Shown here piece by piece: positions 28,058-61,811 of a DNA stretch of 64,000 nucleotides (position 1 is its first letter; every line of letters begins with the position of its first letter). The notes under the pieces are model-generated. The model did not search any database and was not told where the DNA came from. It worked only from the letters and a program-made list of their open reading frames with translations. Origin of the DNA: Bowmanella yangjiangensis (lineage in GTDB: Bacteria; Pseudomonadota; Gammaproteobacteria; Enterobacterales; Alteromonadaceae); assembly GCF_017255015.1 (NCBI RefSeq), contig NZ_JAFKCS010000010.1:537-64536 (forward strand). The letters are read 5' to 3'. The position numbers and the translations under genes are program-made.

Positions 28058-28084
28058 GTGAACGAGGATAAACCAGAGGTGGAA

Positions 28085-28375
28085 ATGGCACAAACATCAA
28101 TGCTGCACGTTCGTATCGATAGCCAGTTGAAAGCAGATGCAACAGAAAAATTGGCCAATGTGGGTCTGACCTTGTCAGATGCTGTGCGCATATTACTCAC
28201 TCGGGTAAGCAAAGAAGGGGGATTACCGGCTGGCCTGACCGTTGATCCTGATGCACATGATGCGTGGTTTAAAGCCAAAGTTCAGGAAGCACTATCCAGC
28301 AATCAGGCGGATGTGCCACATAATCAGGTTGTTAACGACTTACAAGCGCTAGTTAACAGGAAACGCCGTGCCTAA
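28085..28375 (+). CDS. RelB/DinJ-family antitoxin
   Basis: 96 aa. A ribbon-helix-helix N terminus (SMLHVRIDSQLKADATEKL, then LTLSDAVRILLTRV) is typical of RelB/DinJ antitoxins, which dimerise on their own promoter and neutralise the partner. The start at 28085 is chosen because GAGGTGG precedes it and the domain begins at once; an earlier GTG would add nine polar residues. The last codons overlap the toxin start. Confidence 0.85.
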   Translation: MAQTSMLHVRIDSQLKADATEKLANVGLTLSDAVRILLTRVSKEGGLPAGLTVDPDAHDAWFKAKVQEALSSNQADVPHNQVVNDLQALVNRKRRA

Positions 28376-28655
28376 AATTGCATGGTCCAAATTAGCCCAC
28401 GCTGATTTGAGTGCAATTGTTGAGTACATTTCTGAGGATAATCCCGACGCAGCGCAAAGCCTTATTAACGATATTGTCGGAAAAGTAGAGAAGTTACCCT
28501 CATTTCCACAAATGGGCAGAACTGGCCGGGTTGCAAATACCCGGGAATTAGTTGCCCAGGCAAATTACATCGTAGTTTATCAATGCACACCCGAGTTGAT
28601 CCGGATTCTCCGTATCCTACATGCCGCACGTCAGTGGCCACCTTTGGACGAATAG
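28368..28655 (+). CDS. RelE/ParE-family toxin
   Basis: 95 aa with GTG start, overlapping the antitoxin gene by 8 bp. The fold is readable as SKLAHADLSAIVEYI, NPDAAQSLINDI, LPSFPQMGRTGRV, and a C-terminal strand LIRILRILHAARQWP that matches ParE-type toxins. ParE poisons gyrase and RelE cleaves mRNA; the shape fits ParE better, but the target is an inference. The pair may stabilise this terminus-proximal island. Confidence 0.87.
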   Translation: MPKIAWSKLAHADLSAIVEYISEDNPDAAQSLINDIVGKVEKLPSFPQMGRTGRVANTRELVAQANYIVVYQCTPELIRILRILHAARQWPPLDE

Positions 28656-28670: not shown

Positions 28671-28682
28671 GTGACATGTCAC
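28671..28682. promoter_or_regulatory. matS-like palindrome 1 (GTGACATGTCAC)
   Basis: A perfect 12-bp palindrome. The known matS site bound by MatP is GTGAC-RNY-GTCAC, 13 bp; here the same two half-sites are separated by two bases. It lies 87 bp before the start of a MatP-like gene. Confidence 0.6.
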
Positions 28683-28741
28683 AACCACGCTATTGCAACC
28701 AACCAACAACTCGAATAGAGTGGGGTGCATGCATTTTATTT

Positions 28742-28753
28742 GTGACAGGTCAC
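28742..28753. promoter_or_regulatory. matS-like palindrome 2 (GTGACAGGTCAC)
   Basis: The same half-sites with a two-base centre, 71 bp after the first copy and ending 4 bp before the predicted start codon of the MatP-like gene. The position fits autoregulation or a terminus-macrodomain site. Confidence 0.6.
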
Positions 28754-28757
28754 GAAA

Positions 28758-29375
28758 TTGAGTTCAAAACAAAACACATCAAATTCATCCACCCAGGATG
28801 CCAACCAGGCACTCTGGCAGAATTTTGTGCAAAGCGGGTTAATTGAAAAAGCCATTAAGCCGTTAGATATGATTGAGCCGGATAGCGTATTGCCGGATTT
28901 TACTCAGCTTAATGCTAGCGAGGCCATGCAGTTACTGAAGCACAGCATAGTGGCGGATTGCTATAAGCGCCTAAATGCCAAATGGCGTAAGTATAAGCAG
29001 CGCCATTTAAGCAATCTCACCAGCTTAACCATTAAGGCCGAAACCCTGGACAGGCTTAGAGCCTTTGCGGCGAAGGCGGGGCTAGACGGGGATAACTACG
29101 ACCTTGTGCTCGAATACCTGTTAGACCCTGAAGAAGATCTGGAGAGCGCCAAACAAGCGGTGGCCGAACTACCGAGCGGATTAAACACCCAGGACCAGGG
29201 CCAGTTGCTGCAAACCAAACTCAAACTAAGACCAAGCAGCCAACGTTACTTTCACAGTCAGTTAGAGCATGCTTTTGGCCATGGCTGGCTGGCCTGTAAA
29301 GCCGCAAAACAGCGTAGCGATAAACACCGCGACCAGGCCTGTGAAGACTTTATGCAGAACATCAAAGTCCAGTAA
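28758..29375 (+). CDS. MatP-like ribbon-helix-helix DNA-binding protein next to dif
   Basis: 205 aa. The middle (about residues 75-130) resembles MatP, the terminus-macrodomain organiser: a basic helix LNAKWRKYKQRHLSNL, then strand SLTIKAETLDRLRAFAAKAG, then helix NYDLVLEYLL, which together form a ribbon-helix-helix. In MatP the same order is RKRHF, a short strand, LAGLAQRRG and a second helix. MatP is about 150 aa, so this is longer at both ends. Three GTGAC-NN-GTCAC palindromes and a dif site nearby support the call. An in-frame stop at 28743 limits the start to the TTG at 28758 or later. No ribosome site is clear. Identity is inferred. Confidence 0.6.
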   Translation: MSSKQNTSNSSTQDANQALWQNFVQSGLIEKAIKPLDMIEPDSVLPDFTQLNASEAMQLLKHSIVADCYKRLNAKWRKYKQRHLSNLTSLTIKAETLDRLRAFAAKAGLDGDNYDLVLEYLLDPEEDLESAKQAVAELPSGLNTQDQGQLLQTKLKLRPSSQRYFHSQLEHAFGHGWLACKAAKQRSDKHRDQACEDFMQNIKVQ

Positions 29376-29727: not shown

Positions 29728-29755
29728 ATTTAACATAATATACAGTGTACTTGAG
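29728..29755. other. Left attachment site: dif XerD arm and central region
   Basis: ATTTAACATAATATACA (29728-29744) is identical to the XerD-binding arm plus the 6-bp central region of Escherichia coli dif read on the opposite strand. The following 11 bp (gtgtacttgag) match the XerC arm poorly. It is repeated directly at 42561, as expected when a circular element integrates at dif by XerCD. Confidence 0.85.
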
Positions 29756-29830
29756 CTATCCCCCCGCAGGTCAGGCGGGGCGGGGGATTCACTGGTTTAT
29801 ATAGGTCAGAATGACCCTAGAAACGATTAA

Positions 29831-30100
29831 TTAGTGAGCGTAGTTAGACCAGAATGAAATTAAAGTTTCGTCGTTATGGCGTTCGGCCCTTTCAATGTGC
29901 ATGGAAGCCACGACTGTCAAGGGATTGAGGTCTAAAAGCTCTGCAATCTCAATTGCAACCTTGTCATCCAAAGTTGTGCCTTGGCAGCGATACTTGCTTA
30001 CAGCACCCCTAGTTAAACCTAATTTCTTAGCAAGCGCATAGTCGGAAGGCAGGCCATATGCGGCTTTGACCTGTTCTAGCAGTTCAATGGTTTTCAACAT
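29831..30100 (-). CDS. Cro/C1-type phage repressor
   Basis: 89 aa. Residues about 5-60 form a helix-turn-helix of the Cro/C1 type (YALAKKLGLTRGAVSKYRCQG), followed by a short tail. The ATG at 30100 is preceded by GGAG; a TTG five codons upstream is less likely. It is the only leftward gene at this end and faces the early rightward genes across 249 bp, the layout of a lysogeny switch. Confidence 0.8.
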   Translation of the reverse strand: MLKTIELLEQVKAAYGLPSDYALAKKLGLTRGAVSKYRCQGTTLDDKVAIEIAELLDLNPLTVVASMHIERAERHNDETLISFWSNYAH

Positions 30101-30276
30101 TTCGCAACACTCCAAATTACTCGCCTACTAAGAATAATTAATGCGTCAACGCCCTGCAACGTATTCAGGGGGTAGACATGTATCATGGTAGTAGACTAGT
30201 CTGATTTGGCCCTGAACGATCACTGAATTACTCGCAGCACTTCAAGCGATCATCAGGGCAACTTCTGTAAGTTATC

Positions 30277-30338
30277 AGCTTGTCCCAGGTGGCATCTGTC
30301 CGCACAGTGCCGATGGATGCCACCACCTAAGACAAGCT
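30277..30338 (+). repeat. Long imperfect inverted repeat in the early leader
   Basis: The arms AGCTTGTC-NN-AGGTGG...CATC (30277-30296) and its complement (30316-30338) could fold into a stem of about 18 bp with a loop of 19 bases. It lies just before the first rightward gene, in the region between the repressor and early genes, and may be an RNA leader or a site used in replication. Confidence 0.55.
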
Positions 30339-30349
30339 CAGGGGACAAC

Positions 30350-30565
30350 ATGAACACTTATCAAGTTTTACACGAGAACCAGGAGAGGCCGGTTGTCGCT
30401 GAGTCACTAAGGGCGGCAGCACAGAGCGTGCTGCCAACCGGGTTTGACGCCGTACAGGTCGGCCCAGGAGCGTTTGCTGCTGTGGTAGTTGAACGTGAAT
30501 TAGAAGGCTGGCCCAGCCGTGAGCGAGGCTACTTTGCAGCAGTGGTACAGGGAGGCCGCGCATGA
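30350..30565 (+). CDS. Small early prophage protein
   Basis: 71 aa, beginning MNTYQVLHENQERPVV, with GGGGA upstream of the ATG. It is soluble, with alternating polar and hydrophobic residues, and no known domain was recognised. It overlaps the next gene by 4 bp (ATGA-type coupling), so the two are co-expressed. Confidence 0.55.
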   Translation: MNTYQVLHENQERPVVAESLRAAAQSVLPTGFDAVQVGPGAFAAVVVERELEGWPSRERGYFAAVVQGGRA

Positions 30566-30750
30566 AACATCAGATCACCTTTGACACAAAAGAAATTGAA
30601 ATTTCCTACGCCTCCGTTGATGCCATGCACCGAAACATGGCCGCTTTAGTTGAACAGTTCAAAATCAGGAAACAGAGACCGCCACAAATGTTCCTGCACG
30701 AGCTTTCCATCCTGGAAACCCTACTAGCCAAGTTTAATTCCCGCTTATAG
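30562..30750 (+). CDS. Small early prophage protein
   Basis: 62 aa, beginning MKHQITFDTKEIEISY; an amphipathic helical C terminus (LHELSILETLLAKF). It is coupled to the preceding gene, and its stop lies inside the stem of a terminator. Function unknown. Confidence 0.55.
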   Translation: MKHQITFDTKEIEISYASVDAMHRNMAALVEQFKIRKQRPPQMFLHELSILETLLAKFNSRL

Positions 30751-30758
30751 CGGGTTTT
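30740..30758 (+). terminator. Rho-independent terminator of the early unit
   Basis: Stem CCCGC/GCGGG with loop TTATA followed by TTTT. It overlaps the stop codon of the preceding gene. Confidence 0.7.
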
Positions 30759-31010
30759 GTCAATGGTCGGTGGGGTTTTAATAGTTTCTTCTGTCGGCCA
30801 TTGCCAAAGCTCGTTAAAGCATCCAGCTAACAAAAAGCCCTGACGTTTGGATCAAGATGCCTTTGGGCGTTGGGGGTTAACTGGGGAAGGCTGCGGAGGC
30901 AGCAAGCCGGTACAAGGGATAGCGCCAAACAGTCCGGCACGGTACGAAGCAATAGAGAGCGGCGGGTTTCGGGAGTCGCGCCCCGGACAAACCACAGTGG
31001 GTTAGGAGGA

Positions 31011-31088
31011 ATGCCGGCACCACGTAAAAAACGCCGTGTAAGTGGTTCAACGCGCCTTTATTCGGGGGAGCCGTTGGTGTGGGGGTAG
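31011..31088 (+). CDS. Possible 25-residue basic peptide within the structured region
   Basis: An AGGAGG sequence directly precedes an ATG for a short basic peptide starting MPAPRKKRRVSGS and ending VWG. The spacing to the ATG is too short for an ideal ribosome site. It may be fortuitous, or a small regulatory peptide. Confidence 0.2.
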   Translation: MPAPRKKRRVSGSTRLYSGEPLVWG

Positions 31089-31276
31089 GCCTTAGCCTAT
31101 TTCGAATAGTCCCCTGTGCAATGCCCAAGGTCGACAAGACGAACGACGCGAGAGAGTACCTCGCTAGTGCGCCCTTTCAAGGTGAGAGCTGAAAGCTTAG
31201 CGCATTAGTGAACAATGTTAAAGCACCGGCTGTGCTGAGCATTGGGGCAGTGAGCCGACCATGGCCGCAGAGTCCT

Positions 31277-31301
31277 AAACCGCAAGAGATTGCGGTTTTT
31301 T
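31277..31301 (+). terminator. Strong rho-independent terminator
   Basis: 8-bp stem AACCGCAA/TTGCGGTT, loop gaga, then a T-run. It ends the candidate structured RNA; on the other strand the T-run is shorter. Confidence 0.8.
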
Positions 31302-31716
31302 AAGGGAGCGTGGTTAGGGGCTTGCTGCGCCCAAGCGCAGCAAGAGAAGGTAAAAAAGCCTTTAGCCTTATCCCGTCAGGGATTAGCGGAGGCAAAGCCG
31401 ACAGCCTTTTACTAGCGCGGAATATTAGCGCCGCTGCAAGCGGCAGCATTAACGGCGCCCGAAGGGCGGAAAAAGAAAAAACAAGCGAGAAATACAATGC
31501 TTGTTGCTCTGGGCCTGTGAGTAAACGGGAATTAGGGAACGACTGTGGGCAATGGCTGTGGTCAGCTCTGCTGTCCATAGACTTGTCCATAGGTAGTGAC
31601 CGGCCCATAGGGCAATTCCTGTTTTCCACAGGTCGGTATCTGGCCGATAGGCCATTTTTTGGTCCTTTTTTAAAACTCGCCGTGATGGCGATATGGTCCG
31701 AATCAAGGAACCCTAC
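31302..31716. other. Gene-free structured stretch, possible replication origin
   Basis: 415 bp without a credible gene. A perfect 10-bp hairpin CTTGCTGCGC/GCGCAGCAAG is at 31321-31344, and more GC hairpins follow to 31480. TGTCCATAG occurs twice (31572 and 31584), CCCATAG again at 31604, and TTTTCCACA, one base from a DnaA box, at 31622. Repeats plus a DnaA-like box suggest an origin, but this is inference. Confidence 0.35.
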
Positions 31717-31980
31717 ATGATTGAACTATCCAATCAGGCGGCTTGTTGTGATAACACCCGCCAACCCTTTCAAAAGGCGCGCTTCTACGTGCGCCGTTCC
31801 TGGCTACCACCGCCAAAGCCGCGCAGATTTCACGTAGCAACGCATATTTCTAACCGGCCAAAGGAACCACATGAAAACAAACCATCAGATAGCCGCCGAC
31901 GTTGGCTATCGGCTCAAAGAGTGGCGATTAAGACGGCAGCACTATACCGGCCAGTTATGCCGCCAGGAGGATGTCGCTAA
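31717..31980 (+). CDS. Possible small prophage protein with an RFHVAT segment
   Basis: 87 aa, beginning MIELSNQAACCDNTRQPFQK, with FYVRRSWLPPPKPRRFHVAT in the middle. The RFHVAT-coding DNA is repeated outside the element at 29542, which supports a conserved coding segment. The C-terminal third overlaps the next gene in another frame and looks unlike protein, so the true end or the call itself is uncertain. Confidence 0.4.
   Translation: MIELSNQAACCDNTRQPFQKARFYVRRSWLPPPKPRRFHVATHISNRPKEPHENKPSDSRRRWLSAQRVAIKTAALYRPVMPPGGCR
31824..31843 (+). repeat. 20-bp repeat shared with the left flank (copy 2, inside)
   Basis: Differs from 29542-29561 at one position. It encodes part of RFHVAT in the gene at 31717. 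Confidence 0.6.
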
Positions 31981-32170
31981 GGCTGTCGGCATTGCCCAAG
32001 CGACTTATTCCAGAATCGAGTCTGGCAAAGCCCTAATGAACCTGGGGCAGATGCTTGATCTGTGCGAATACTTCGATGGCGATGTGTGGCAACTGCTGGA
32101 TGCCGGGGGCTCTATCAGGGGATACCTGAGCCACAGAAAAGAACAGAAAAAACTTAACCAACAAGGATAA
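31871..32170 (+). CDS. XRE-family helix-turn-helix protein
   Basis: 99 aa. The N-terminal helix YRLKEWRLRRQ is followed by a classic helix-turn-helix, CRQEDVAKAVGIAQATYSRIESGK, and LMNLGQMLDLCEYFDGDVWQLL, as in XRE/Cro regulators. It is the first gene of the late block and could switch on or off the structural genes. Downstream spacing is 4 bp to the next gene. Confidence 0.8.
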   Translation: MKTNHQIAADVGYRLKEWRLRRQHYTGQLCRQEDVAKAVGIAQATYSRIESGKALMNLGQMLDLCEYFDGDVWQLLDAGGSIRGYLSHRKEQKKLNQQG

Positions 32171-32174
32171 AACC

Positions 32175-32366
32175 ATGTTTCTAACAGTCGAGAGACTCTC
32201 AGCCATGTTTAACAAAATTATGGAGCGCATTATTGCCCGGCAGAACGCCCGCATTCAGCGCGAAGCCGAAGCCCTTAGCGCCGCCCAAACCGCGCTTAAA
32301 TCCGCACAGATGGAACGTGATCGGGCCATCAGAGCCAAGCACAAGCTAACGGCGATGTTTGAGTAA
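32175..32366 (+). CDS. Small coiled-coil prophage protein
   Basis: 63 aa: MFLTVERLSAMFNKI followed by a long charged helix rich in Ala, Glu and Arg that should form a coiled coil. AAGGA lies 7 bp before the ATG. The stop overlaps the next ATG (TAATG). Function unknown. Confidence 0.55.
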   Translation: MFLTVERLSAMFNKIMERIIARQNARIQREAEALSAAQTALKSAQMERDRAIRAKHKLTAMFE

Positions 32367-32710
32367 TGCAAATTGTTAAAGCGGTAACGATGCTAAAGGT
32401 TAAGCGCCTGACCAAACTGTTGAAGATGATAGAGGCCAGGCACTATGAACTACAGGAACTGCTGAGTAAAAGCCACGTTAATTCAGTGCTAAAGCCAGGA
32501 AAGCACGGCATTACTCAGGAGATGATTGATAGAAAGCCAATGGAGCTAACAGTTAGGGGTAGGAGGAAGGCAAGGCAGCTGCACCGACTGACAAAAATAC
32601 TGGAACAGCGGCAGGCAGAGCTATTAACCATGCTTAACAAAAGCTGGATAGAAGAGCCATCAGTCTGGAATGAAGAAACTAAACAAATGGAGCGGAGAAG
32701 TACCAAATGA
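32366..32710 (+). CDS. Small basic helical prophage protein
   Basis: 114 aa, strongly basic. Two similar halves each contain a leucine-rich helix (VKRLTKLLKMIEARHYELQ and ARQLHRLTKILEQRQAEL), so it may have arisen by internal duplication. It could bind nucleic acid. It overlaps both neighbours by a few bases within the late operon. Confidence 0.55.
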   Translation: MQIVKAVTMLKVKRLTKLLKMIEARHYELQELLSKSHVNSVLKPGKHGITQEMIDRKPMELTVRGRRKARQLHRLTKILEQRQAELLTMLNKSWIEEPSVWNEETKQMERRSTK

Positions 32711-32874
32711 CACTCAAGCAAAAAGCCCACGCACTTACCCAGGAGATTACCGAGCTACGCCTGAAAGCGGCCAAGTGCGCCTTGCCCTGGAAAGCGGTTG
32801 ATCTGGTCGCCGCTGCCGCCGAAAAACAAGACCAGTTAAACCGTCTGTTAGTGGAGGCCTTACCCAATGAATAA
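32707..32874 (+). CDS. Small helical prophage protein
   Basis: 55 aa, beginning MTLKQKAHALTQEITELRLK. It is amphipathic and helical with no membrane segment. It overlaps the preceding stop by 4 bp and the following start by 8 bp. Function unknown. Confidence 0.55.
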   Translation: MTLKQKAHALTQEITELRLKAAKCALPWKAVDLVAAAAEKQDQLNRLLVEALPNE

Positions 32875-33298
32875 CATAGCCGGTCAGATTGTCTGTGAAT
32901 GCGGCCATGTAGCCGAGATACGGTTACGGCGCAACGGCCAGCGCCTGCCGTTTAAAGCCTGCAAGCATTGCGGCGTCCAGCAAGGCAAAGCGCCGGTAAG
33001 GGCGCGTTGGCTGGCAGAGATGCAACCCAGCATTGGTACCTATGGCGAAAAAGCATCAGGAACCAGCACCAGCGCGGAATCTGAGCCGGTACCAACTTTA
33101 AGTGAAGTTAAAGATCAGGTTAAAACCGATTGGGTACCACCCGCCGAGCTGGCCCCCGAAAACGCCGAGCCAAAACCCGCGCCAGACCAGGAAACACCGG
33201 ATAAAGATAAAAAGTCCGGCAAAGGCTGGCTTGTCGGCTTAGGCGTCTTGGGCCTTGGCGTGCTCGCCGCCCTAGGTTTTGCCCGTACCACCTCCTAA
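32867..33298 (+). CDS. Zinc-ribbon protein with C-terminal membrane anchor
   Basis: 143 aa. The N terminus has CxC...CxxC (VCECGHVAEI and KACKHCGVQ), a zinc ribbon. A Pro/Glu-rich linker follows (about 65-120), then a glycine-rich transmembrane helix (GWLVGLGVLGLGVLAALGF). The shape, a soluble head on a flexible linker with a C-terminal helix, suits a protein of the internal virion membrane. It lies upstream of the ATPase gene. Confidence 0.65.
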   Translation: MNNIAGQIVCECGHVAEIRLRRNGQRLPFKACKHCGVQQGKAPVRARWLAEMQPSIGTYGEKASGTSTSAESEPVPTLSEVKDQVKTDWVPPAELAPENAEPKPAPDQETPDKDKKSGKGWLVGLGVLGLGVLAALGFARTTS

Positions 33299-33316
33299 CA
33301 CCAGGAATAACACCGA

Positions 33317-33847
33317 ATGCAGCAAGAACAGCAGTTAGAAAGCCAAGATGAAACCCTGATTAACCAGGATAAAGTTGAAGTTAAAACCGAGCCGGTACCA
33401 GAGCCGCCCGAAAACCAGCCGCCACAGGTCGAAAATAAAGATTTTGACCAAATGGTAAATGCGGCCCTGGAAACTAAGGACGATGTTAAAAAGGCCGAGC
33501 AGGAAGAAAAGACCGCGCTGGCCGCCAAGCTTACCGAAGATGAAGCAGCAGAATTCGCTATCCAGGGATTAGATGCAGTGGTCGCTTGGGTAGAAGACCA
33601 AACCGGCACCCAGACCGAGTTGCCCAAAGTGGCCGTAATGGCCTATGCGTCCCTGGTCACGCCTTGCATCATGAAACATGGGCCGACTATCAAGCGCCTA
33701 ATGAGTAAGACCCGCGAGATACCCGAAGACAGCTATTTAGTTGAAGTCATGGCCGTGGGCGGCGTGGCAGCGGTCGGGATTCCGCTATGGCTCCAGCTTC
33801 GCAAGGCCAGACAGCAGCAAGGGAACACAGATGGCAATCAACGCTAG
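33317..33847 (+). CDS. Acidic prophage membrane protein
   Basis: 176 aa. An acidic, proline-rich N-terminal half is followed by a helical region and a C-terminal hydrophobic segment (VEVMAVGGVAAVGIPLWLQL). It is probably a minor virion membrane protein or an assembly factor. It overlaps the ATPase gene by 17 bp. Confidence 0.6.
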   Translation: MQQEQQLESQDETLINQDKVEVKTEPVPEPPENQPPQVENKDFDQMVNAALETKDDVKKAEQEEKTALAAKLTEDEAAEFAIQGLDAVVAWVEDQTGTQTELPKVAVMAYASLVTPCIMKHGPTIKRLMSKTREIPEDSYLVEVMAVGGVAAVGIPLWLQLRKARQQQGNTDGNQR

Positions 33848-34640
33848 TAACCGCCACAGCGCCCGCCATGCCTGTATAACGTGCGCCACTGGCAACGGTA
33901 AGGGCATTGCTGTGACATCCCTGGTTTACCCGTCTACGTCCTGTCTGGCCGTGTTTGATCCTTATGGTGAATACGAAGGCCGCTTTGGCCGTCGAAAGGC
34001 GTTTAGCTATCGCACAAGGCGCGGTTTTGCCCGTGCCTTTGCTGCCGCATGGAAAAGTCATAAGCCCTTTGTGGTGGTCTATCACCCCCAAGCAGATCGT
34101 GACCGCCTGGAAGAAATGGAGTGGTTCGGGCAATTGATGTGGATGGCCTCAGACGGTAACCGGGTATTGCATGTGCTGTTTGAAGAATTCGGCAAATGCA
34201 CTGAGTCAATTTCGAAGGATGACACCATCGCCGGGGAGATTGCCACCGGGGGCCGTAAGTTCGGCATGATTGCCGGTTACGTGTTCCAGCGTAGCGCGGA
34301 AGTGCCTAAAACCATTTGGGGCAACTGCCCGATAAAGGTTATTGGCGCTCAGGAGTACACCGCCGACGTTAAACGCATCCAAGACCAACTTGGTTGTAGT
34401 GCTGACGATGTGGCCGACCTGGGCAGGCTAAACCAAGCGTTTAGCGCCTATGTTCCGGCCTATGACGACAGGGTAAAGACCAAGTGTCATTACCTCGTAG
34501 CGCGGGGGCTGATGGATTTCAGCCGCCAAGCGGCCCTGGTGTATCCCAACCGGCATTTAGTGAAGAACTGGAGCGCTGAACAGAAGCGATTACACCAGGA
34601 GAGCCGCTTTACCCTGGTTAACCCGGAGATTTTAAAATAG
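33831..34640 (+). CDS. Viral genome-packaging ATPase (PM2 P9-like, FtsK/HerA class)
   Basis: 269 aa. The nucleotide-binding loop reads CATGNGKGIAVTS, a Walker A variant with Gly instead of Ser/Thr after the lysine. LAVFDPYGEYEGRF follows, typical of HerA/FtsK-like packaging ATPases, and a Walker B-like strand VLHVLFEEFGK lies near residue 115. Size and position just before the major capsid gene match the packaging ATPase of double-jelly-roll viruses. The start at 33831 is chosen because an earlier in-frame start would run deep into the preceding gene. Confidence 0.75.
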   Translation: MAINASNRHSARHACITCATGNGKGIAVTSLVYPSTSCLAVFDPYGEYEGRFGRRKAFSYRTRRGFARAFAAAWKSHKPFVVVYHPQADRDRLEEMEWFGQLMWMASDGNRVLHVLFEEFGKCTESISKDDTIAGEIATGGRKFGMIAGYVFQRSAEVPKTIWGNCPIKVIGAQEYTADVKRIQDQLGCSADDVADLGRLNQAFSAYVPAYDDRVKTKCHYLVARGLMDFSRQAALVYPNRHLVKNWSAEQKRLHQESRFTLVNPEILK

Positions 34641-34647
34641 ACCAGTC

Positions 34648-34671
34648 CCGGCGCGGTTCTGCGCCGGTTTT
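34648..34671 (+). terminator. Terminator between ATPase and capsid genes
   Basis: Stem CCGGCGC/GCGCCGG, loop ggttct, then TTTT. It separates the ATPase block from the structural block. Confidence 0.75.
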
Positions 34672-34789
34672 CCCGCCTTTGTCAGATTAAATCAAGATTA
34701 AACGCCGCTTGAGGCCATTTTAAATCCCTTGATACCTGTATTAACCGCACCAGGGACAGCCCTGGATTTCACTCACTACAGGTAATGAT

Positions 34790-34921
34790 ATGAACACTCA
34801 AGAACTCACCGCGAAGAAGTCTCACTCACTGATCGCGATTATCGGCATTTCAGCCGTGACAGCGCTGGCCGTCACCTGGGCAGCCAATAACGTTTCTGCA
34901 ATTCGCCGTGCGGTACGCTAA
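34790..34921 (+). CDS. Small one-helix virion membrane protein candidate
   Basis: 43 aa: MNTQELTAKKSHSL, then a hydrophobic helix IAIIGISAVTALAVTWAA and a short basic tail (IRRAVR). AGG precedes the ATG. It lies 12 bp before the major capsid gene. Many membrane-containing phages have such tiny proteins in the virion membrane. Confidence 0.6.
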   Translation: MNTQELTAKKSHSLIAIIGISAVTALAVTWAANNVSAIRRAVR

Positions 34922-34933
34922 GGAGCTGCCCCG

Positions 34934-35773
34934 ATGAATTTATTGGATCTGGCCATTAACGGCTATAAACCCACGCCTATCGAGCTGGACGCCTTTGCTA
35001 CGGTAAAGAAGAACCAGCGTAACCAAATGAAGGTCACCACCGGCCCGACGTTCCAGAACATGGAGCTGGTGACCAACATCACCGACCCGGCACTGATTGA
35101 AACCGTACAGGTTGAGCTAAACGGCACCATGATTGTGGACGTGACCGGCACTGAGCTGAAAATGATTGAAGGCTACACCAAGCGCAACCGCGCCAATGGC
35201 CGTTATGTCATTCCGTTTTGCCGTACCGAAGCTAAAACCTTGGACGGTGCAAGAACCGGCGAGCTGGTGACACTGCCCACCGACAACATCACGGTTTATG
35301 TGAAGCTTGGCGATACGGGCGTCACAGAGCCAGAAATGCGCGCCCGCGCCCTGGTAACGCCTGCTCAGTCTGTACGTGTCTTCATCCCCAAACTGGACAG
35401 CGTGAACATCAACGCATCCACAACAGGCATGAACCGCTTTAGCTGGGACAACCGCAGCCCTAACTTGCATATCCGTCGTTTGCACTTCTATCGCGCTGAT
35501 ATGACGCGCCTGGAAGTCTGGCGCGATGATTTGCGTGTGTTTGAAGCCTCAGACGTGGATAACGCCGCCGACTTGGCCGAAGGCAACGACAACGCACCAC
35601 AGGCGGGTATTTTCCACTTTGATCCGGCGCATATGGGTTATCAGTTGCAAGGGCTGTTTGCCACTATCGCCCGTAAGTCTCTGGAGTTCCGTTACTGGGC
35701 AGGCAGTACCGGCAATGTGAAGGTCTTGCGCGAAACTATCGAGCAAGTGGCACCTATTGGACAAGCGGCATAA
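34934..35773 (+). CDS. Major capsid protein, PM2 P2-like double jelly roll
   Basis: 279 aa, almost the size of PM2 P2 (269). Residues about 45-65 (LIETVQVELNGTMIVDVTG) followed by a helix and VIPFCRTEA match the order of the viral coat protein P2 N-terminal domain. The second half (LHIRRLHFYRADMTRLEVWRD) resembles the second jelly roll. AAGGAG precedes the ATG. Position after the packaging ATPase and in front of a series of small membrane proteins also fits. The match is by pattern, not by search. Confidence 0.75.
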   Translation: MNLLDLAINGYKPTPIELDAFATVKKNQRNQMKVTTGPTFQNMELVTNITDPALIETVQVELNGTMIVDVTGTELKMIEGYTKRNRANGRYVIPFCRTEAKTLDGARTGELVTLPTDNITVYVKLGDTGVTEPEMRARALVTPAQSVRVFIPKLDSVNINASTTGMNRFSWDNRSPNLHIRRLHFYRADMTRLEVWRDDLRVFEASDVDNAADLAEGNDNAPQAGIFHFDPAHMGYQLQGLFATIARKSLEFRYWAGSTGNVKVLRETIEQVAPIGQAA

Positions 35774-35812
35774 GCCGCTATGTCCAGCTTTCAACTAGGA
35801 GAGGGCTATAAA

Positions 35813-36151
35813 ATGGAGACTACCGCAGTCGAACAGCCCTGGTATCAATCTCTACTTAACTTCGGCGGGGCCATTGCTGACCGCGCTGGAGAGTATGCAG
35901 GGATTAAGCTAGAGCAGGAAATGGCTCGCCACCGAGCCAAAACCGAAGAGCTACGCAACCGCGAAGCCAGCGCCAACAAGGAAGTGCAGGACAGTCTTGC
36001 CCCGGTAAAGGGCAAAGACGCAGACGGCGCGACGCTGACGGAAACCGTTACCTTTGCCGGACAGTCCTTTAACAAGTCCACCCTAAAAACCGCAGGGTTT
36101 GTATTGGGCGGCTTACTGTTGGCCGGGCTGGCCTATAAGGCGGTGAGCTGA
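35813..36151 (+). CDS. Prophage membrane protein with C-terminal helix
   Basis: 112 aa from the ATG at 35813, which has GGAGAGG upstream; an in-frame ATG at 35780 lacks a ribosome site. A charged coiled-coil region (about 25-65) is followed by a C-terminal hydrophobic helix (AGFVLGGLLLAGLAYKAV). Probably a minor structural protein of the virion membrane. The stop abuts the next ATG. Confidence 0.65.
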   Translation: METTAVEQPWYQSLLNFGGAIADRAGEYAGIKLEQEMARHRAKTEELRNREASANKEVQDSLAPVKGKDADGATLTETVTFAGQSFNKSTLKTAGFVLGGLLLAGLAYKAVS

Positions 36152-36312
36152 TGGGCTACAAGTCACGATCTCAACAAACCAGGGAAGTGAGCCAGATTAC
36201 CCGCCACAACCCGCAAACAGGCCGCCAAGCGGTCACAGCGTACACGCCCACGGTGAATACCCAGGGCATTCCCGCTGAGCGTTTCCACCCACGCCGGAGG
36301 ACAGTGAAATGA
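36151..36312 (+). CDS. Small basic prophage protein
   Basis: 53 aa, beginning MGYKSRSQQTREVSQITRHN, strongly basic, with no membrane segment. It could line the inside of the capsid and bind DNA. It begins directly after the preceding stop and overlaps the next start by 4 bp. Confidence 0.55.
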   Translation: MGYKSRSQQTREVSQITRHNPQTGRQAVTAYTPTVNTQGIPAERFHPRRRTVK

Positions 36313-36518
36313 TAGGCAGTCTGACCGGGGGCGGCGGCCTGTCTAACAGCTCCAGCGCGGGTAGTGGTACAGGTGATCAGGCTGGTAATAACGGCTTCAA
36401 CATCGGCACGTTTAACGGCCAGGGCGGCAGCGGCTTAACCAATCAACAGTTAATGATTGGGGGCGGCCTTCTGCTAGCGGGGCTTGCGCTGTATGCGTTT
36501 AGTAAAAAGAAGCGCTGA
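36309..36518 (+). CDS. Glycine-rich small membrane protein
   Basis: 69 aa. A glycine/serine/asparagine-rich N-terminal half is followed by a hydrophobic helix (LMIGGGLLLAGLALYAF) and a basic tail SKKKR. The topology is that of a virion membrane protein. It overlaps both neighbours. Confidence 0.6.
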   Translation: MIGSLTGGGGLSNSSSAGSGTGDQAGNNGFNIGTFNGQGGSGLTNQQLMIGGGLLLAGLALYAFSKKKR

Positions 36519-36885
36519 ACAGATAGCCCTGGTTAGCAAAGCGGCAGGCACGGACGCCGCCGAGATTGCCGCCGAAGTGGCCGATGGATTGGCTGAGTTC
36601 TTTTCCCTGGGTAGCTGTCATTTTGTGCTTCGGCATGAAGTGACCACCAGGGGAAAAGAGCTGGTTGTGGTCTGTGCTGAGGGTAAACAGCTCAGATCAC
36701 CTCTTCGGGCCATCATCGCCAAAGCCAGGGCCATGGGCTTTGATTGCATCCGTTACCACCCCAAAAATCAGCTAGCCGGATTGGCCTTAGCCAGAATTGC
36801 AGGCGTGTCGGTGCGCTTTTATAGGGAAGCCGAGACGCACTATTACATTTGTTTTTTACGGGAGACTGTAGGCCATGGGCAGTAG
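36493..36885 (+). CDS. Hypothetical prophage protein
   Basis: 130 aa from the ATG at 36493. Soluble alpha/beta pattern: RSPLRAIIAKARAMGFDCIRY and GVSVRFYREAETHYYICFL. No family recognised. It overlaps the preceding gene by 26 bp and the following gene by 11 bp. Confidence 0.55.
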   Translation: MRLVKRSAEQIALVSKAAGTDAAEIAAEVADGLAEFFSLGSCHFVLRHEVTTRGKELVVVCAEGKQLRSPLRAIIAKARAMGFDCIRYHPKNQLAGLALARIAGVSVRFYREAETHYYICFLRETVGHGQ

Positions 36886-37567
36886 CAGCCGCAGCAGCCA
36901 AACACAGCATACGTCGAACCAGAATACCCAAGTGTCCTGGGCGGATAACTCTGAACACTTCACGGACAATTCGGATAACTCCAGTTTCGACTTTAACCAG
37001 GACAATTCGGATAACTCCATAGTTGAGATCAGCAATGAGGGATGGGGGGCCGGTTCCAATATCGGGGGCAACGTCACCATTGTGGATGGCGGGGCCATAT
37101 CAGCTATGCGCGATGTGTCCACCGAAGCCATTAAAGGAGCCACCGAGCAAACCTATTTGGCTACCCAGGTAGCCGAGAACACCGCAAGAGAGGCCATGGA
37201 CTTTGGTCGGGATGCGGTTGCCAGTAACGAACGGGTAAGCCGTGACGCCATGATAACCGCTGAGAACACCGCGAAAAGTTCTATAGCGGGAATGCGTGAC
37301 ACTGCATCCGAAGCGATGCAAGGCTTACTTGAAGGCAGCGAGGCCGCTATTGCTGGTGTAACAAAATCAAGCACGGAGAACACCGACAAGGCCATTGCAG
37401 CCACCACAGCGGCAATGGAGCGTAACGCGGCACTGATTCAAACCACCGCCCTGGGCGGACAGGATCTCATGATTGATATGGTGAAAAAGGTACTTATCGG
37501 CGTAGCCGTTGCGCTAACCGTGGGCGGTGTCACGTATGCCATTAGCGGACGGAGGGCCAGAGCATGA
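36875..37567 (+). CDS. Repeat-rich coiled-coil protein with C-terminal membrane helix
   Basis: 230 aa. The N terminus has repeated DNS-rich units (DNSEHFTDNSDNSSFDF, NQDNSDNSI) and a short beta-like stretch GGNVTIVDGGAIS. A long Ala/Thr/Glu-rich coiled coil (about 80-195) follows, then a transmembrane helix (LIGVAVALTVGGVTYAI). It looks like a fibrous vertex or membrane-spanning virion protein. The gene overlaps the next by 4 bp. Confidence 0.6.
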   Translation: MGSSSRSSQTQHTSNQNTQVSWADNSEHFTDNSDNSSFDFNQDNSDNSIVEISNEGWGAGSNIGGNVTIVDGGAISAMRDVSTEAIKGATEQTYLATQVAENTAREAMDFGRDAVASNERVSRDAMITAENTAKSSIAGMRDTASEAMQGLLEGSEAAIAGVTKSSTENTDKAIAATTAAMERNAALIQTTALGGQDLMIDMVKKVLIGVAVALTVGGVTYAISGRRARA

Positions 37568-38196
37568 TTTTACAACCTGGAGAAATCCAGCCCTTTAACC
37601 TGTCCGGCAAATATCTGATTTGTCGCCGGGTAGAGGGGCATATTGTGATTTCCAATCCTGATATTGGCCTGCCGGAAACCCGCATTAAACAGGCCGATGT
37701 TGTCACCCTGGAGGCCGTGCGGCTGATTTACGTCAAGAACCTGGACAGTGCGCCAGTAACCCTTGATTTGCAGTCCACCACTATTCCTATTGCCTCCAGT
37801 GATGGCGGCGCGGTGACGATTAGCGGCGGCAGCATTGACAGTATCCGTGACGCTATCCAGGTAACCGCACAGGCGACAGTTGAAAACGGCACGATGACCA
37901 GTCAAAGCCCTAATGCTGTAAGTGATGCCATAGATATTTCGGTTGCTGCCGGGGCCAAGGTGCAAATACTTGGTTCAACAACCAAAGCAAGGCGCGTTGT
38001 GACGCTGCAAAACATAAGCACCGAGCCAACAACGCTAAGAGTTGGCGGGGCAACCGTGGCCGCGAACCGGGGCGCGATCCTTCGTGGTTCTATCGATTCG
38101 ATAGCTTCTGCAGAAGTTGAAACAGTGGGCGCGGTATATGTGCATAACACGTCACTCGTGGCCGCCACGGTGTCCGTGATGTGGGGAGATAGATAA
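37564..38196 (+). CDS. Beta-rich prophage structural protein (vertex or spike candidate)
   Basis: 210 aa, almost all short beta strands. Two related halves are visible (SGGSIDSIRDAIQV and LRGSIDSIASAEVE, both followed by strands), suggesting an internal duplication. No membrane segment. In PM2-type viruses a beta-rich spike sits on the vertices; this and the next gene are the candidates. The start is coupled to the preceding gene. Confidence 0.5.
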   Translation: MILQPGEIQPFNLSGKYLICRRVEGHIVISNPDIGLPETRIKQADVVTLEAVRLIYVKNLDSAPVTLDLQSTTIPIASSDGGAVTISGGSIDSIRDAIQVTAQATVENGTMTSQSPNAVSDAIDISVAAGAKVQILGSTTKARRVVTLQNISTEPTTLRVGGATVAANRGAILRGSIDSIASAEVETVGAVYVHNTSLVAATVSVMWGDR

Positions 38197-38870
38197 TGGC
38201 GTTTAACAATCCGCAAGATCCATCTGTAAACCAGCCTCTATTTGATGCATTGCTTGCCGCTGTCGAGGCGCTATTAATGTCAAAGGTTGACGGTGCCAGC
38301 CTTTGGGACAACATCAGGGACGAACTATCGTCACAGATATACAACTTTATCACCCGCGCCGATTCACCTAACAGTGTCCGCGTCTGGATTTCTAATCTGA
38401 TGGCCGAGCTGCAAAGTACCGAGCCGGGTAGCATTTTGGAGCGCATCAGTTACAACAACGATGCCATTTTTGACAACCGCAACTACTTGGGCGGGCTAAT
38501 CAATGGGCTTGCTGATAAATCAGCTAAGCGCTTCGGGGTAACACAAACTCTATTAAATGCCGCTTCGTCACGCCTTGCATATGGAGTTGTATCAAGTAGC
38601 AGTCACATTGAAATTTTCAACTATAGCGGCTCAGGGTTGATAACCAAATGTAAGAGCACTAGCAACCTTGGCTGGCGAATCATTGCCGATGGGGTAACCG
38701 TGGTAGATGACCTTGGGCAAGGCAACGGGAGTAACCAAGTTGCTCCTGTTGACATTACTAACTCTGAGTCAATTTTGGGTGTGCCTTTTGATACCAGCAT
38801 TGTTATCAGTGCCAGGAAAAACGGCGGAACAGATGTAGGTGCAACTGTTTTCGGAGGGATTTATTCATGA
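38196..38870 (+). CDS. Candidate receptor-binding spike protein
   Basis: 224 aa. A helical N terminus (about 1-115) is followed by a beta-rich C-terminal domain (SSSHIEIFNYSGSG to the end). Codon use and base composition shift slightly in the C-terminal part, as often seen in host-range proteins that are exchanged between phages. The start overlaps the preceding stop by one base. Function is inferred from position and shape. Confidence 0.45.
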   Translation: MAFNNPQDPSVNQPLFDALLAAVEALLMSKVDGASLWDNIRDELSSQIYNFITRADSPNSVRVWISNLMAELQSTEPGSILERISYNNDAIFDNRNYLGGLINGLADKSAKRFGVTQTLLNAASSRLAYGVVSSSSHIEIFNYSGSGLITKCKSTSNLGWRIIADGVTVVDDLGQGNGSNQVAPVDITNSESILGVPFDTSIVISARKNGGTDVGATVFGGIYS

Positions 38871-39238
38871 GCTTTAATCCTGACATTCACGAAAAAATCT
38901 ATGGGCCTTCTGTTAACCCTGAGACAGGCGAAGTTACTCAAGTTGAAAAAGGTTACAGAATCAAACCACAAGAGGCAGCGCCCGAGCCTATCCGCGTTAT
39001 CAGTGTCGGTTCTTTCCGTCGCCGGTTCACCCTGGATGAAGATGTTTTGATTGAAACCAGCACGGATCCAAAGGTGCGCGTTTTAGAGAAGCGTCTGATG
39101 GCGTCCACCTATGTGGACTTGGACTTTCCCGAAACCGTCCAGGGCATCGGCTATTTAGAGCAAGTCGGCATTATCGCCGCTGGCCGTAGCGCTGAAATCC
39201 TCGCAGATGGTACAGACCAAGAGCGGCCTGGGCGATGA
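38867..39238 (+). CDS. Small prophage protein resembling spike/fibre accessory proteins
   Basis: 123 aa. The middle RVISVGSFRRRFTLDEDVLI and the later DLDFPETVQGIGYLEQVGII resemble short phage proteins encoded beside fibre genes. It overlaps both neighbours by 4 bp. The role is unknown. Confidence 0.5.
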   Translation: MSFNPDIHEKIYGPSVNPETGEVTQVEKGYRIKPQEAAPEPIRVISVGSFRRRFTLDEDVLIETSTDPKVRVLEKRLMASTYVDLDFPETVQGIGYLEQVGIIAAGRSAEILADGTDQERPGR

Positions 39239-39750
39239 AGCTGGCCGCCGTTCTCTTAATTGCAACCGTTACAGGAATCTATCTTATGAACAACTCACGC
39301 ATGCCGAGAGGCATCCGTAACAACAACCCCCTTAACATGAAGGAGTTTGATATTCCTTGGCGGGGTAAAGTCGGCGACGATGGTATTTTTAGTATTTTTG
39401 AAACGCCCTGGTATGGCATCAGGGCCGCTGCCAATGACATTAAAAATGACTATCTGAAAGGCAAGAACACTATCGCTGCCTTGCTGGATGAATTCGCCCC
39501 GGACGTAGAGAACAACACCAGCGCTTACATTGCCCACATTAGCCAAAAGGTCGGCATTGGCCCGCATGATCCAATTACCAGCGCCAGACAACTAACGGCT
39601 ATGGTCGACACAATGATCCTGCATGAGAACGGGCAGCAGCCTTATGACAAGGAGCTGATTGCTGATGCGGTACTTGCGGGCCTCACCAGCGGCAAGCCGC
39701 TACCTGATTATTTTGATTTAACTAAGGTGGTCAATTATGGCATTGCTTAG
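39235..39750 (+). CDS. Phage lysozyme-like structural protein with N-terminal anchor
   Basis: 171 aa. An N-terminal hydrophobic segment (MKLAAVLLIATVTGIYLM) is followed by MPRGIRNNNPLNMKEF, a motif of phage virion-associated muralytic proteins, and a helical domain with PWYGIRAAANDI. It probably cuts peptidoglycan during entry or release and is held in the membrane. It overlaps the next gene by 14 bp. Confidence 0.7.
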   Translation: MKLAAVLLIATVTGIYLMNNSRMPRGIRNNNPLNMKEFDIPWRGKVGDDGIFSIFETPWYGIRAAANDIKNDYLKGKNTIAALLDEFAPDVENNTSAYIAHISQKVGIGPHDPITSARQLTAMVDTMILHENGQQPYDKELIADAVLAGLTSGKPLPDYFDLTKVVNYGIA

Positions 39751-40141
39751 CGACAAGGCGTCTTTTGCGGTGTTGGGTGTGCTTTCCCTGGGTGTGCTGT
39801 ATGCCGCCCACAAGGGCTTAAAGCTATTGCAGCCGCTAAAGCCCGTAGCGGACAAAATCGGGCAGGGGATAGACACAATCAAAGCTAACTGGGATTTGCA
39901 CCTTGGGGACAGCATACAGGCGTCGGGCGCTGGAATTGTGATGCTCAAGAAGCACTTTGATCCAGACTGGCAACTGATGGACAGTTGGGAAATTGCATGG
40001 GCCAAGATGCATCCTGATAACCAGGGACTGATTAATCGGGTTATGAGCGTTGGGGGCTACTTGCTGCCCCAATACCGCGATGCAATCAGCCAGGGGCGTT
40101 CCCTGGTCGTGCTGCCTGATGAAATCAGGATAGAGGACTAA
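39737..40141 (+). CDS. Prophage membrane protein
   Basis: 134 aa. An N-terminal hydrophobic helix (FAVLGVLSLGVLYAAHKGL) is followed by a soluble domain with WDLHLGDSIQASGAG and DPDWQLMDSWEIAWAKMHP. It is located between lysozyme and holin genes. Virion membrane or lysis role; not resolved. Confidence 0.55.
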   Translation: MALLSDKASFAVLGVLSLGVLYAAHKGLKLLQPLKPVADKIGQGIDTIKANWDLHLGDSIQASGAGIVMLKKHFDPDWQLMDSWEIAWAKMHPDNQGLINRVMSVGGYLLPQYRDAISQGRSLVVLPDEIRIED

Positions 40142-40144
40142 CCC

Positions 40145-40534
40145 ATGTTCGGCTTAATTATGGACATCGTTAAAGAAGGCGTTACGTACTTCAAAGAACG
40201 CCAGGAGCAAAAACACCAGGTTAAATTGTCTGTTCTGAAGAACAAGCAGCGACTGGCCGAGAGCGAACAGGACTATAACCACGACTGGGAAATGGCAAGC
40301 CTTGAATCCAGGGACAGATTTTTACGCATTGTGAGCTTTTCATTGTTTTCTGTTCCCCTGGTTGTCACGGTCATTTGGCCGGACACCGGGGCGCAGATAT
40401 TCACCAATTTGGAGAAAGCGCCGGATTGGTATGTACAAACGTTTATCGCTATTAACGGTGGAGTATGGGGAATTGTAGAGCTTAAACATGCTGCCCCGGC
40501 CCTGGTAAATGGCATTAGGAAGATTAAAGGGTAA
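40145..40534 (+). CDS. Holin-like membrane protein
   Basis: 129 aa. A charged N-terminal helix (KERQEQKHQVKLSVLK) is followed by two hydrophobic segments (SFSLFSVPLVVTVIW and FIAINGGVWGIVEL). The pattern resembles the phage holin family with a long N-terminal helix. The position after the lysozyme-like gene supports a lysis role. Confidence 0.6.
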   Translation: MFGLIMDIVKEGVTYFKERQEQKHQVKLSVLKNKQRLAESEQDYNHDWEMASLESRDRFLRIVSFSLFSVPLVVTVIWPDTGAQIFTNLEKAPDWYVQTFIAINGGVWGIVELKHAAPALVNGIRKIKG

Positions 40535-40536
40535 GT

Positions 40537-40653
40537 ATGGATAAGTTAGTTGTTGATATGCTGTCGAGCCTGGACATAAACACGGCTTTGATTTTGTTAC
40601 TGATGTTCAAGCTACATATGCGGATAACGAGGCTAGAAATGAAAGGTACCTGA
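40537..40653 (+). CDS. Tiny membrane protein at the end of the late operon
   Basis: 38 aa, beginning MDKLVVDMLSSLD, with a hydrophobic core TALILLLMFKLHM. It starts just after the holin-like gene and ends inside the terminator stem. It may be a spanin-like or anti-holin peptide. Confidence 0.5.
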   Translation: MDKLVVDMLSSLDINTALILLLMFKLHMRITRLEMKGT

Positions 40654-40667
40654 TTGGTACCTTTTTT
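40642..40667 (+). terminator. Strong terminator of the late operon
   Basis: Perfect 9-bp stem AAAGGTACC/GGTACCTTT, loop TGATT, followed by a T-run. Confidence 0.85.
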
Positions 40668-40699
40668 ATGTTTACCTGGTAAATGACGTCGCCAATTAT

Positions 40700-40753
40700 G
40701 GTACTAAAAGTTAAGCCGGCCAGCTGAACTTGGTTTTCTTTTTGGTACTAAAA
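40700..40753 (+). promoter_or_regulatory. Paired GGTACTAAAA words before a small gene
   Basis: The 10-bp word occurs at 40700-40709 and 40744-40753, in direct orientation and 44 bp apart, upstream of the gene at 40786. The second copy sits in a near-palindrome TTTTTGGTACTAAAAA. This could be an operator pair. Confidence 0.35.
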
Positions 40754-40785
40754 AGGTATTCTGCAGAAATCCAGGAACAAGCAGA

Positions 40786-41043
40786 ATGGTACCAATGCTA
40801 GTTAAAATCTCAAACGACACACCAGAGTTCGAGCAGGCAATTAATGCCATCAAGAACGCCACTCAAACCAACACGGCCAGCAAAGCAGCACTTCATGCTG
40901 TGTTAAGTTATCCCAACATGTGCAAAACAGAGCAGGACTTAAGAAGCGAAATAGCTGCACTTAAGCGGGCCAACCGGGAACTCTCCGATAAAGTGCAGCA
41001 GGTAAAAAACGCGCTTTCTGTGCTTGCCAGCTTAAATGATTGA
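40786..41043 (+). CDS. Small coiled-coil prophage protein
   Basis: 85 aa. The C-terminal half (EQDLRSEIAALKRANRELSD) is a coiled coil. It is separated from the late operon by a terminator and has its own upstream repeats, so it is expressed independently. It overlaps the 3' end of the convergent cargo gene by 12 bp. Confidence 0.5.
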   Translation: MVPMLVKISNDTPEFEQAINAIKNATQTNTASKAALHAVLSYPNMCKTEQDLRSEIAALKRANRELSDKVQQVKNALSVLASLND

Positions 41044-41853: not shown

Positions 41854-41914
41854 AAGACCTTGGCGATGTGCCAATCATACTCACAAGATTGAACACAGCC
41901 AAAGGTTAAAAAAC

Positions 41915-41926
41915 GTGACTTGTCAC
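41915..41926. promoter_or_regulatory. matS-like palindrome 3 (GTGACTTGTCAC)
   Basis: The same half-sites as the two copies upstream of the MatP-like gene, but inside the prophage, overlapping the stop codon of the DUF3653-like gene. Confidence 0.5.
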
Positions 41927-42471: not shown

Positions 42472-42560
42472 AGTGATTTCCCAAAACTTCTGGAAATAGG
42501 GCGTAGGCTACTGAGTAAGCGCCAACCATGCCTTTTACACCTTTTATCCCAATAAAGTCT
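42472..42560. other. Short spacer between the last prophage gene and dif
   Basis: No gene. It holds the upstream region of the DUF3653-like gene and ends at the dif core. Confidence 0.4.
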
Positions 42561-42588
42561 ATTTAACATAATATACATTATAGGAACT
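42561..42588. other. dif site / right attachment site
   Basis: ATTTAACATAATATACA (42561-42577) plus the 11 bp TTATAGGAACT. Read on the opposite strand it is a close match to gammaproteobacterial dif: XerD arm and central region identical to Escherichia coli dif, and a recognisable XerC arm (agttcctataa). This is probably the functional chromosomal dif where XerCD resolves chromosome dimers. Confidence 0.88.
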
Positions 42589-61565: not shown

Positions 61566-61811
61566 TTAACAATCGTTGCTTTTTAACCACTCATTCAGCA
61601 GTTTAATCTGCCCGCAGCGGTAAGCAGCATAGGTTATGCGTAACGCATTATTCAACAGTTCACCGTCCGTCCAGCCGCTTTTTTCCGACAATTCTTTATA
61701 ACAGTGCATACCTTTGGGGCTGACATAGCCCCTGACTTCCTTATTGCCTTTCTGGCGTTGTCTCTCACGGAAGCGGCGTTGTTTTTCGGCATTAATATTT
61801 GAAGCAGACAT
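61566..61811 (-). CDS. Small hypothetical basic protein
   Basis: 81 aa, beginning MSASNINAEKQRRFRERQRQ with a basic stretch, followed by VRGYVSPKGMHCYKELSEKSGWTDGELLNNALR, which reads like a ribbon-helix-helix or small DNA-binding segment. No family named. It is convergent with the symporter gene. Confidence 0.55.
   Translation of the reverse strand: MSASNINAEKQRRFRERQRQKGNKEVRGYVSPKGMHCYKELSEKSGWTDGELLNNALRITYAAYRCGQIKLLNEWLKSNDC

Follow-up and report, generated by a model that had tools for sequence, protein, structure and literature searches.

Several described systems come close to the locus considered here. The terminus-linked MatP/matS system of Escherichia coli and Vibrio pairs a protein made of a four-helix bundle, a ribbon-helix-helix (RHH) and a coiled coil with a 13-bp palindromic site whose half-sites read GTGAC. 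ArgR, PepA and ArcA are accessory proteins of Xer recombination at the plasmid sites cer and psi, where accessory sites stand at a fixed distance from a core with a 6-bp spacer. In Tn4651-like transposons, a tyrosine recombinase and a helper gene (TnpS and TnpT) are divergently arranged around a recombination site, and RHH antitoxins are known to repress their own genes from palindromes of the kind described below. With regard to the terminus itself, 23 matS sites over 800 kb have been reported (PMC3330122), a chromosomal domestication has been proposed for the plasmid-borne terminus gene tus of the Tus/ter system (PMC6549158), and tailless prophages integrated at dif have been described in Vibrio (PMC11630473).

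The window, i.e., the whole stretch of 64,000 nucleotides from Bowmanella yangjiangensis analysed here, carries beside a dif copy an open reading frame (ORF) for a 205-aa protein, whose stop codon lies 352 bp before that copy (Table 1). A preliminary description of this DNA had seen in it a possible terminus organiser related to MatP and acting through a shortened matS. Its factual basis holds: the ORF is there, and so are the three GTGAC-NN-GTCAC palindromes, two of them just 5' of the gene. They are the only exact matches to GTGACNNGTCAC in the window (n = 3), a number that is not due to chance, as had been argued, since 100 dinucleotide shuffles gave a mean of 0.03 and a maximum of one per window. 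The proximal palindrome also contributes the in-frame stop upstream of the ORF. The third is located between both dif copies, where a provirus ORF has its 3' end, and because it lies within the provirus its membership in the set of the gene is not clear. The provirus (12.8 kb, 29728-42588) is of the tailless-phage type and is integrated at dif between the hybrid left and the canonical right copy; two of its proteins match PHROGs, one those of a major head protein (E 2.4e-56), the other those of a packaging ATPase (E 4.3e-26; 'terminase large subunit'). Directly 5' of the 205-aa gene, a RelB antitoxin/ParE toxin pair (28058-28655) can be found, which is also present in B. denitrificans and is unmatched by the B. 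pacifica stretch.

Table 1. Position, strand and character of the features located in the 64-kb window.
Feature	Position	Strand	Remarks
Gene of the proposed Xer-site companion protein (205 aa; TTG as start codon)	28758..29375	+	From the ORF list
Distal palindrome GTGACATGTCAC	28671..28682	.	Centre 81 bp 5' of the start codon
Proximal palindrome GTGACAGGTCAC	28742..28753	.	End 4 bp 5' of the start codon
Third palindrome GTGACTTGTCAC	41915..41926	.	Within the provirus; possibly chance
Left dif copy	29728..29755	-	Hybrid: XerD half canonical, XerC half foreign
Right dif copy	42561..42588	-	Canonical; identical to B. pacifica dif over the 28 bp read
GTTATGCGTAAC, one-mismatch copy of the GTTAYGCRTAAC palindrome	61633..61644	+	

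NCBIfam, PHROGs and the PDB sequences contain nothing that matches the 205-aa protein, and its matches to Pfam are weak at most, the best being TraD (E 0.008, below the cut-off). TraD and YciF (E 0.83) were both rejected as identities, the likeness being weak and judged to be chance or generic to RHH proteins; ParD is weakly matched by 3 of 22 family members (best E 0.055). As none of the libraries gives it a name, the protein is, judged by sequence comparison, a member of an unnamed and undescribed family. Of 395 Alteromonadaceae genomes, 30, belonging to 9 of 52 genera, have this family according to a profile built from eight relatives (a single-protein search had found it in 7 of 147 genomes). 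It was not found by the profile search in the other 365, among them one Bowmanella (G150), from which it follows that dif works without the family protein. Plasmid relatives are also present, tblastn searches of PLSDB with four members returning 2, 21, 2, and 4 records that overlap in part, and no relative was confirmed among 29 candidate stretches of viral contigs. Within Bowmanella, the protein is 94% identical to that of B. pacifica, 90% to that of B. denitrificans and 63-67% to that of B. dokdonensis (67% over the best segment only). The dN/dS values of the Bowmanella copies (0.06-0.18 in six pairs, dS being saturated in the three with B. dokdonensis) indicate purifying selection.

Regarding kinship with MatP, the 205-aa protein shows a basic helix followed by a RHH-like stretch, collinear with MatP and weakly similar to it. 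Comparison of the family profile with MatP by hhalign, which the preliminary description had called for, depends on the alignment used: P was 0.22 with the first eight relatives, 0.0015 with 22 rows, and 7e-4 after realignment against 22 MatP sequences (score 29.4, probability 26%, 80 columns). Controls in which one side was reversed scored 11.7 and 10.3 vs. 29.4, and reversing both sides, which mirrors the same alignment, gave 20.8. With 55 family rows, some of them redundant, the score was 26.3 (P 0.0026), as compared with a top score of 20.5 among 60 block-shuffled MatP profiles. The order of helices in the family is compatible with helix, loop or strand, helix, helix, and AlphaFold2 models of the family (mean pLDDT 50 and 52) are too poor for fold comparison. 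The Pfam model of MatP (PF06303) does not match the 205-aa protein at E ≤ 1 and is absent from 25 of the 26 families matched by 22 members. The MatP-like basic helix and RHH reported earlier are therefore upheld as a collinear but weak likeness, which is suggestive of kinship and may instead reflect a generic RHH resemblance, MatP being the sole RHH family compared. A canonical MatP was not detected either: PF06303 has no match in this genome (E. coli serving as positive control), and MatP was found in none of 10 Alteromonadaceae genomes drawn vs. 37 of 148 genomes of the order. An alignment search with E up to 10, run without a positive control, found none in 14 genomes including this one. 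Literature matches listed for MatP, matS and Alteromonas were unrelated by title.

The distribution of the 12-bp site does not follow that of matS. The genome-wide count proposed in the preliminary description returned only six copies of GTGACNNGTCAC in the whole 5.4-Mb draft, below the 12 of the reversed control pattern and with no spread over the terminus. In 1.05 Mb around dif from four Bowmanella genomes, 12 of 12 copies of GTGAC-NN-GTCAC are at most 1.7 kb away from a dif copy: four in G149 and three in G148 (all within 1.7 kb), two in G151 (at 0.8 kb), and in the present genome two about 1 kb from the left dif and the provirus copy 0.65 kb from the right one. None was found in far stretches of G148 and G151 (100 kb each). 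Similarly, an 80-kb plasmid contains the cognate 14-mer at two places only, both beside the family gene. The sites are thus confined to the region upstream of the gene and to a few positions near dif (within about 0.7 kb), i.e., two to four at the gene and dif in Bowmanella, where MatP would have some twenty or more across the terminus; a matS-like spread is ruled out by these counts, and a terminus organiser using a shortened matS is not supported. The 13-bp form GTGACRNYGTCAC is absent from the window, allowing up to one mismatch. GTGACNNNGTCAC occurs nine times genome-wide vs. two for its reversed control, with no copy on the dif contig (C2). In this same genome (G000), where MatP was not detected, three copies of GTGACRNYGTCAC, the canonical matS form, were observed within 100 kb of one contig (C223; positions 149154, 239635 and 248438).

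Another palindrome does show a matS-like distribution. Among the matches listed, all 18 exact copies of GTTACGCGTAAC in six genomes whose dif has been located lie within 260 kb of it (three each in G106, G256, G457 and G499, two in G154 and four in G509), and six more copies (one each in G134, G148, G155, G156, G168 and G204) are without placement relative to dif. With up to one mismatch, five genomes together contain 28 copies of GTTACGCGTAAC in the 1.45 Mb surrounding dif, where 12 permuted palindromes give 1-12 copies (mean 3.6), and not one in 0.6 Mb far from dif, the origin region of G106 including some N. Considering 3 kb on each side of the GTTACGCGTAAC sites and two RY variants, 11 of 20 sites are inside ORFs and nine outside; four pairs of such sites share at least one orthologous neighbour across genomes, and the others share none (E 1e-10). 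The commonest variant leads to the consensus GTTAYGCRTAAC, also observed in the dif regions of four Bowmanella. GTTAYGCRTAAC is hence terminus-confined in Alteromonadaceae without detectable MatP, its copies being scattered, like those of matS, across tens to hundreds of kb. As it is present in G106 and G154, where the 205-aa family was not found, its binder is probably a different protein. Literature matches to its letters were unrelated by title.

The surroundings of the family gene were compared in 29 loci, which take in part of the profile matches: 20 fetched for context, L009-L011 and the window, the plasmid stretches L065, L066 and L071, and parts of the two joined plasmids pA and pB. 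They are not all independent, the four Bowmanella, L078 with pA, L085 with L086, and L075-L077 being related. A dif lies within 2 kb of the gene in nine loci from five genera, namely the four Bowmanella, L074 (G176), L072 (G162), L071 (a 647-kb Catenovulum plasmid), and L081 and L084 (G317/G432). A dif-like core stands beside the gene in six more. KOPS, counted by their known motif pattern, converge on dif at the dif-type loci (14 forward and one reverse on the left, one forward and eight reverse on the right), and show no clear polarity at ten recombinase-type or core-bearing loci (four forward and two reverse on the left, six and three on the right). At least nine loci (L073, L078, L085, L086, L088, L090, L091, pA and pB) have a divergent tyrosine recombinase within 3.2 kb, located 0.16-2.1 kb upstream on the opposite strand. 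All seven of these recombinases that were scanned match Phage_integrase of Pfam above the cut-off; all six scanned with the NCBIfam XerC/XerD models match far below the cut-offs, and they are therefore termed Xer-like rather than XerC or XerD. A Tus gene lies within 20 kb in at least seven loci, and an annotated Tus lies about 19 kb from the pB gene, beyond the examined stretch. Both the Tus and the recombinase numbers are minimum values, some stretches being shorter than 20 kb or off-centre. In 11 of the 29 loci, no divergent recombinase was found and no dif at 2 kb or less; one of these loci, L089, retains a core. In L083, a dif-like sequence with two mismatches is located about 8 kb from the gene. 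On chromids of the genus g76 (L075, L076, L077), the family gene is preceded by a ParA-like gene and by KOPS-like GGGNAGGG motifs, of which L077 has eight overlapping ones, and is followed after 100-171 bp by a conserved sequence that weakly resembles dif.

On plasmids, the module has a recognisable architecture. The DNA separating the recombinase from the family gene contains an inverted repeat whose arms stand 6 bp apart, e.g., TCTATTATTACAGATAA-ctgtta-TTATCTGTAATAATAGA in the Salinimonas plasmid. In the six loci with a recognisable core (L078, L085, L088, L089, L090 and pA, of which L078 and pA are near-identical there), the core centre is followed at 51-55 bp by a first palindrome and, 60-62 bp further, by a second one; the core arms have 0-1 mismatches in L085, L088, L089 and L090, and four in L078 and pA. 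The fit is less good in pB (59 and 61 bp, with a poor core), L091 falls outside this spacing (70 and 127 bp), and L073, with a single palindrome, is non-standard in layout. Two paralogous modules, L085 and L086, coexist in G443, and in L086 a 533-aa ORF appears to part the recombinase and core from the palindromes. Core-phased sites were observed in these six plasmid-type loci and not in Bowmanella or the other dif loci. The palindrome pair is spaced by 71 bp in four of four Bowmanella species, about one helical turn longer than on the plasmids. In the Bowmanella stretches searched, neither a core next to the palindromes nor a partner recombinase was found, and since dif is 0.75-1.7 kb away from the palindromes of the gene, the phased geometry has been lost. 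A chromosomal copy in G453 has its palindromes 61 bp apart, and no core was found there.

The half-site differs with the protein lineage, five classes being distinguished: GTGAC (Bowmanella, L073, L074, L075), GTTAC (L072, L080, L082, L085-L087, L090), ATTAC (L091), GTTA-N4-TAAC (L078, L083, L088, L089, pA), and CATGAT (L081, L084). Variants occur in L076, L077 and pB, and none was recognised in L065, L066 and L071. Palindromes of the first four classes are found 5' of the gene (in a stretch that begins 160 bp upstream and reaches 20 bp into the ORF) in 20 of the 29 loci, 13 of them with two or more, and are missing in the other nine; of 363 further ORFs called mechanically in these loci (150 aa or longer), eight have one or more palindromes of these classes. 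Cognate palindromes beyond dif are found in B. pacifica (two, at about 0.1 and 0.7 kb), B. denitrificans (one, at 0.44 kb) and G162 (one of the GTTAC class, at 0.43 kb), and no cognate site was found on the far side of dif in L011 and L074.

We consider it somewhat probable that the family consists of Xer-site companions, small predicted RHH dimers that would be autoregulated, local accessories of recombination, domesticated at dif and not organising the terminus. A dimer would very likely bind both palindromes upstream of its own gene and block the promoter, which would amount to self-repression. On plasmids, two sites at fixed, helically phased distances from the core point to a probable nucleoprotein complex, which may favour plasmid dimer resolution as ArgR and PepA do at cer. 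In Bowmanella and some other genera, one copy would have been domesticated beside a chromosomal or chromid dif, where it may act locally in the same way or, in some species, bridge sites on both sides of dif. Because the plasmid relatives lie in apparent plasmid-separation modules with recombinase and core, a role local to the Xer site is more likely than one across a macrodomain. The likeness to ArgR, PepA and ArcA lies in accessory sites at a fixed distance from a core with a 6-bp spacer, dimer resolution being presumed for the family; unlike them, as far as descriptions can be set against each other, the family gene is dedicated, stands next to the core, has a divergent recombinase of its own, and is found beside dif as well. 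TnpS/TnpT, again compared by description, share the divergent recombinase and helper gene around a recombination site, but no transposon module was recognised in the family loci. With Tus/ter, the family would share the proposed passage from plasmid to chromosome, and Tus genes lie near some of its members; Tus, however, forms a replication-fork barrier and is encoded by a separate gene.

A gene of this kind could also encode a simple transcription factor that regulates itself, or serve plasmid maintenance, having been brought near dif by elements that integrate through XerCD and being without a role in recombination. The operator-like palindrome at the start codon in many loci and the plasmid relatives would agree with this, as would dif being an integration hot spot (PMC11630473), where the window carries a tailless-phage provirus. 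Yet the core-palindrome spacing is fixed in two site classes (GTTAC and GTTA-N4-TAAC), dif adjacency is kept in four Bowmanella under purifying selection, and additional palindromes lie beyond dif in three genomes, so that we regard a plain regulator as unlikely, though deserving serious weight. An antitoxin of a toxin-antitoxin pair would likewise account for the RHH-like stretch, the operator-like palindromes and the weak ParD matches, but no conserved adjacent toxin gene was found: no downstream partner is common to most of the 29 loci, the commonest adjacent clusters recurring in three, and the neighbouring RelB/ParE pair is complete and separate. This variable neighbourhood largely contradicts an antitoxin, which we find hardly credible.

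That the protein organises the terminus as a divergent MatP through a 12-bp matS is, in our estimate, very improbable. The GTGAC half-sites, which recur at the 205-aa gene, the failure to detect MatP in this genome, the weak collinear likeness and the position of the gene next to dif all speak for it. They are countered by the total of six sites in the genome and, in the 1.05 Mb around dif, their restriction to 1.7 kb from a dif copy, by the plasmid on which the cognate site occurs at the gene alone, by the presence of the family in only 30 of 395 genomes, and by a different palindrome being terminus-confined even where the family was not found. Besides the shorter site, the family differs from MatP by its plasmid relatives with a recombinase, a longer C-terminal part and the lack of PF06303. 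It can still be conjectured, as an improbable reading of the likeness, that MatP and the 205-aa family share an ancestor, namely a protein encoded on plasmids that assisted Xer-type dimer resolution and was domesticated beside dif, as proposed for tus. If so, Bowmanella and its kin would represent an intermediate, with a few sites at dif before their spread into a macrodomain.

As an Xer-site companion, the 205-aa protein would add to the short list of terminus parts a new, unnamed family with readable probable binding sites, and the occurrence of GTTAYGCRTAAC in Alteromonadaceae without detectable MatP suggests a further terminus-binding protein there. On plasmids, the family belongs to a compact module combining a recombinase, a core, two phased sites, a putative DNA-binding protein and sometimes a nearby Tus. 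With copies located beside both chromosomal and chromid dif, this suggests that plasmid terminus parts have repeatedly been taken over by chromosomes.
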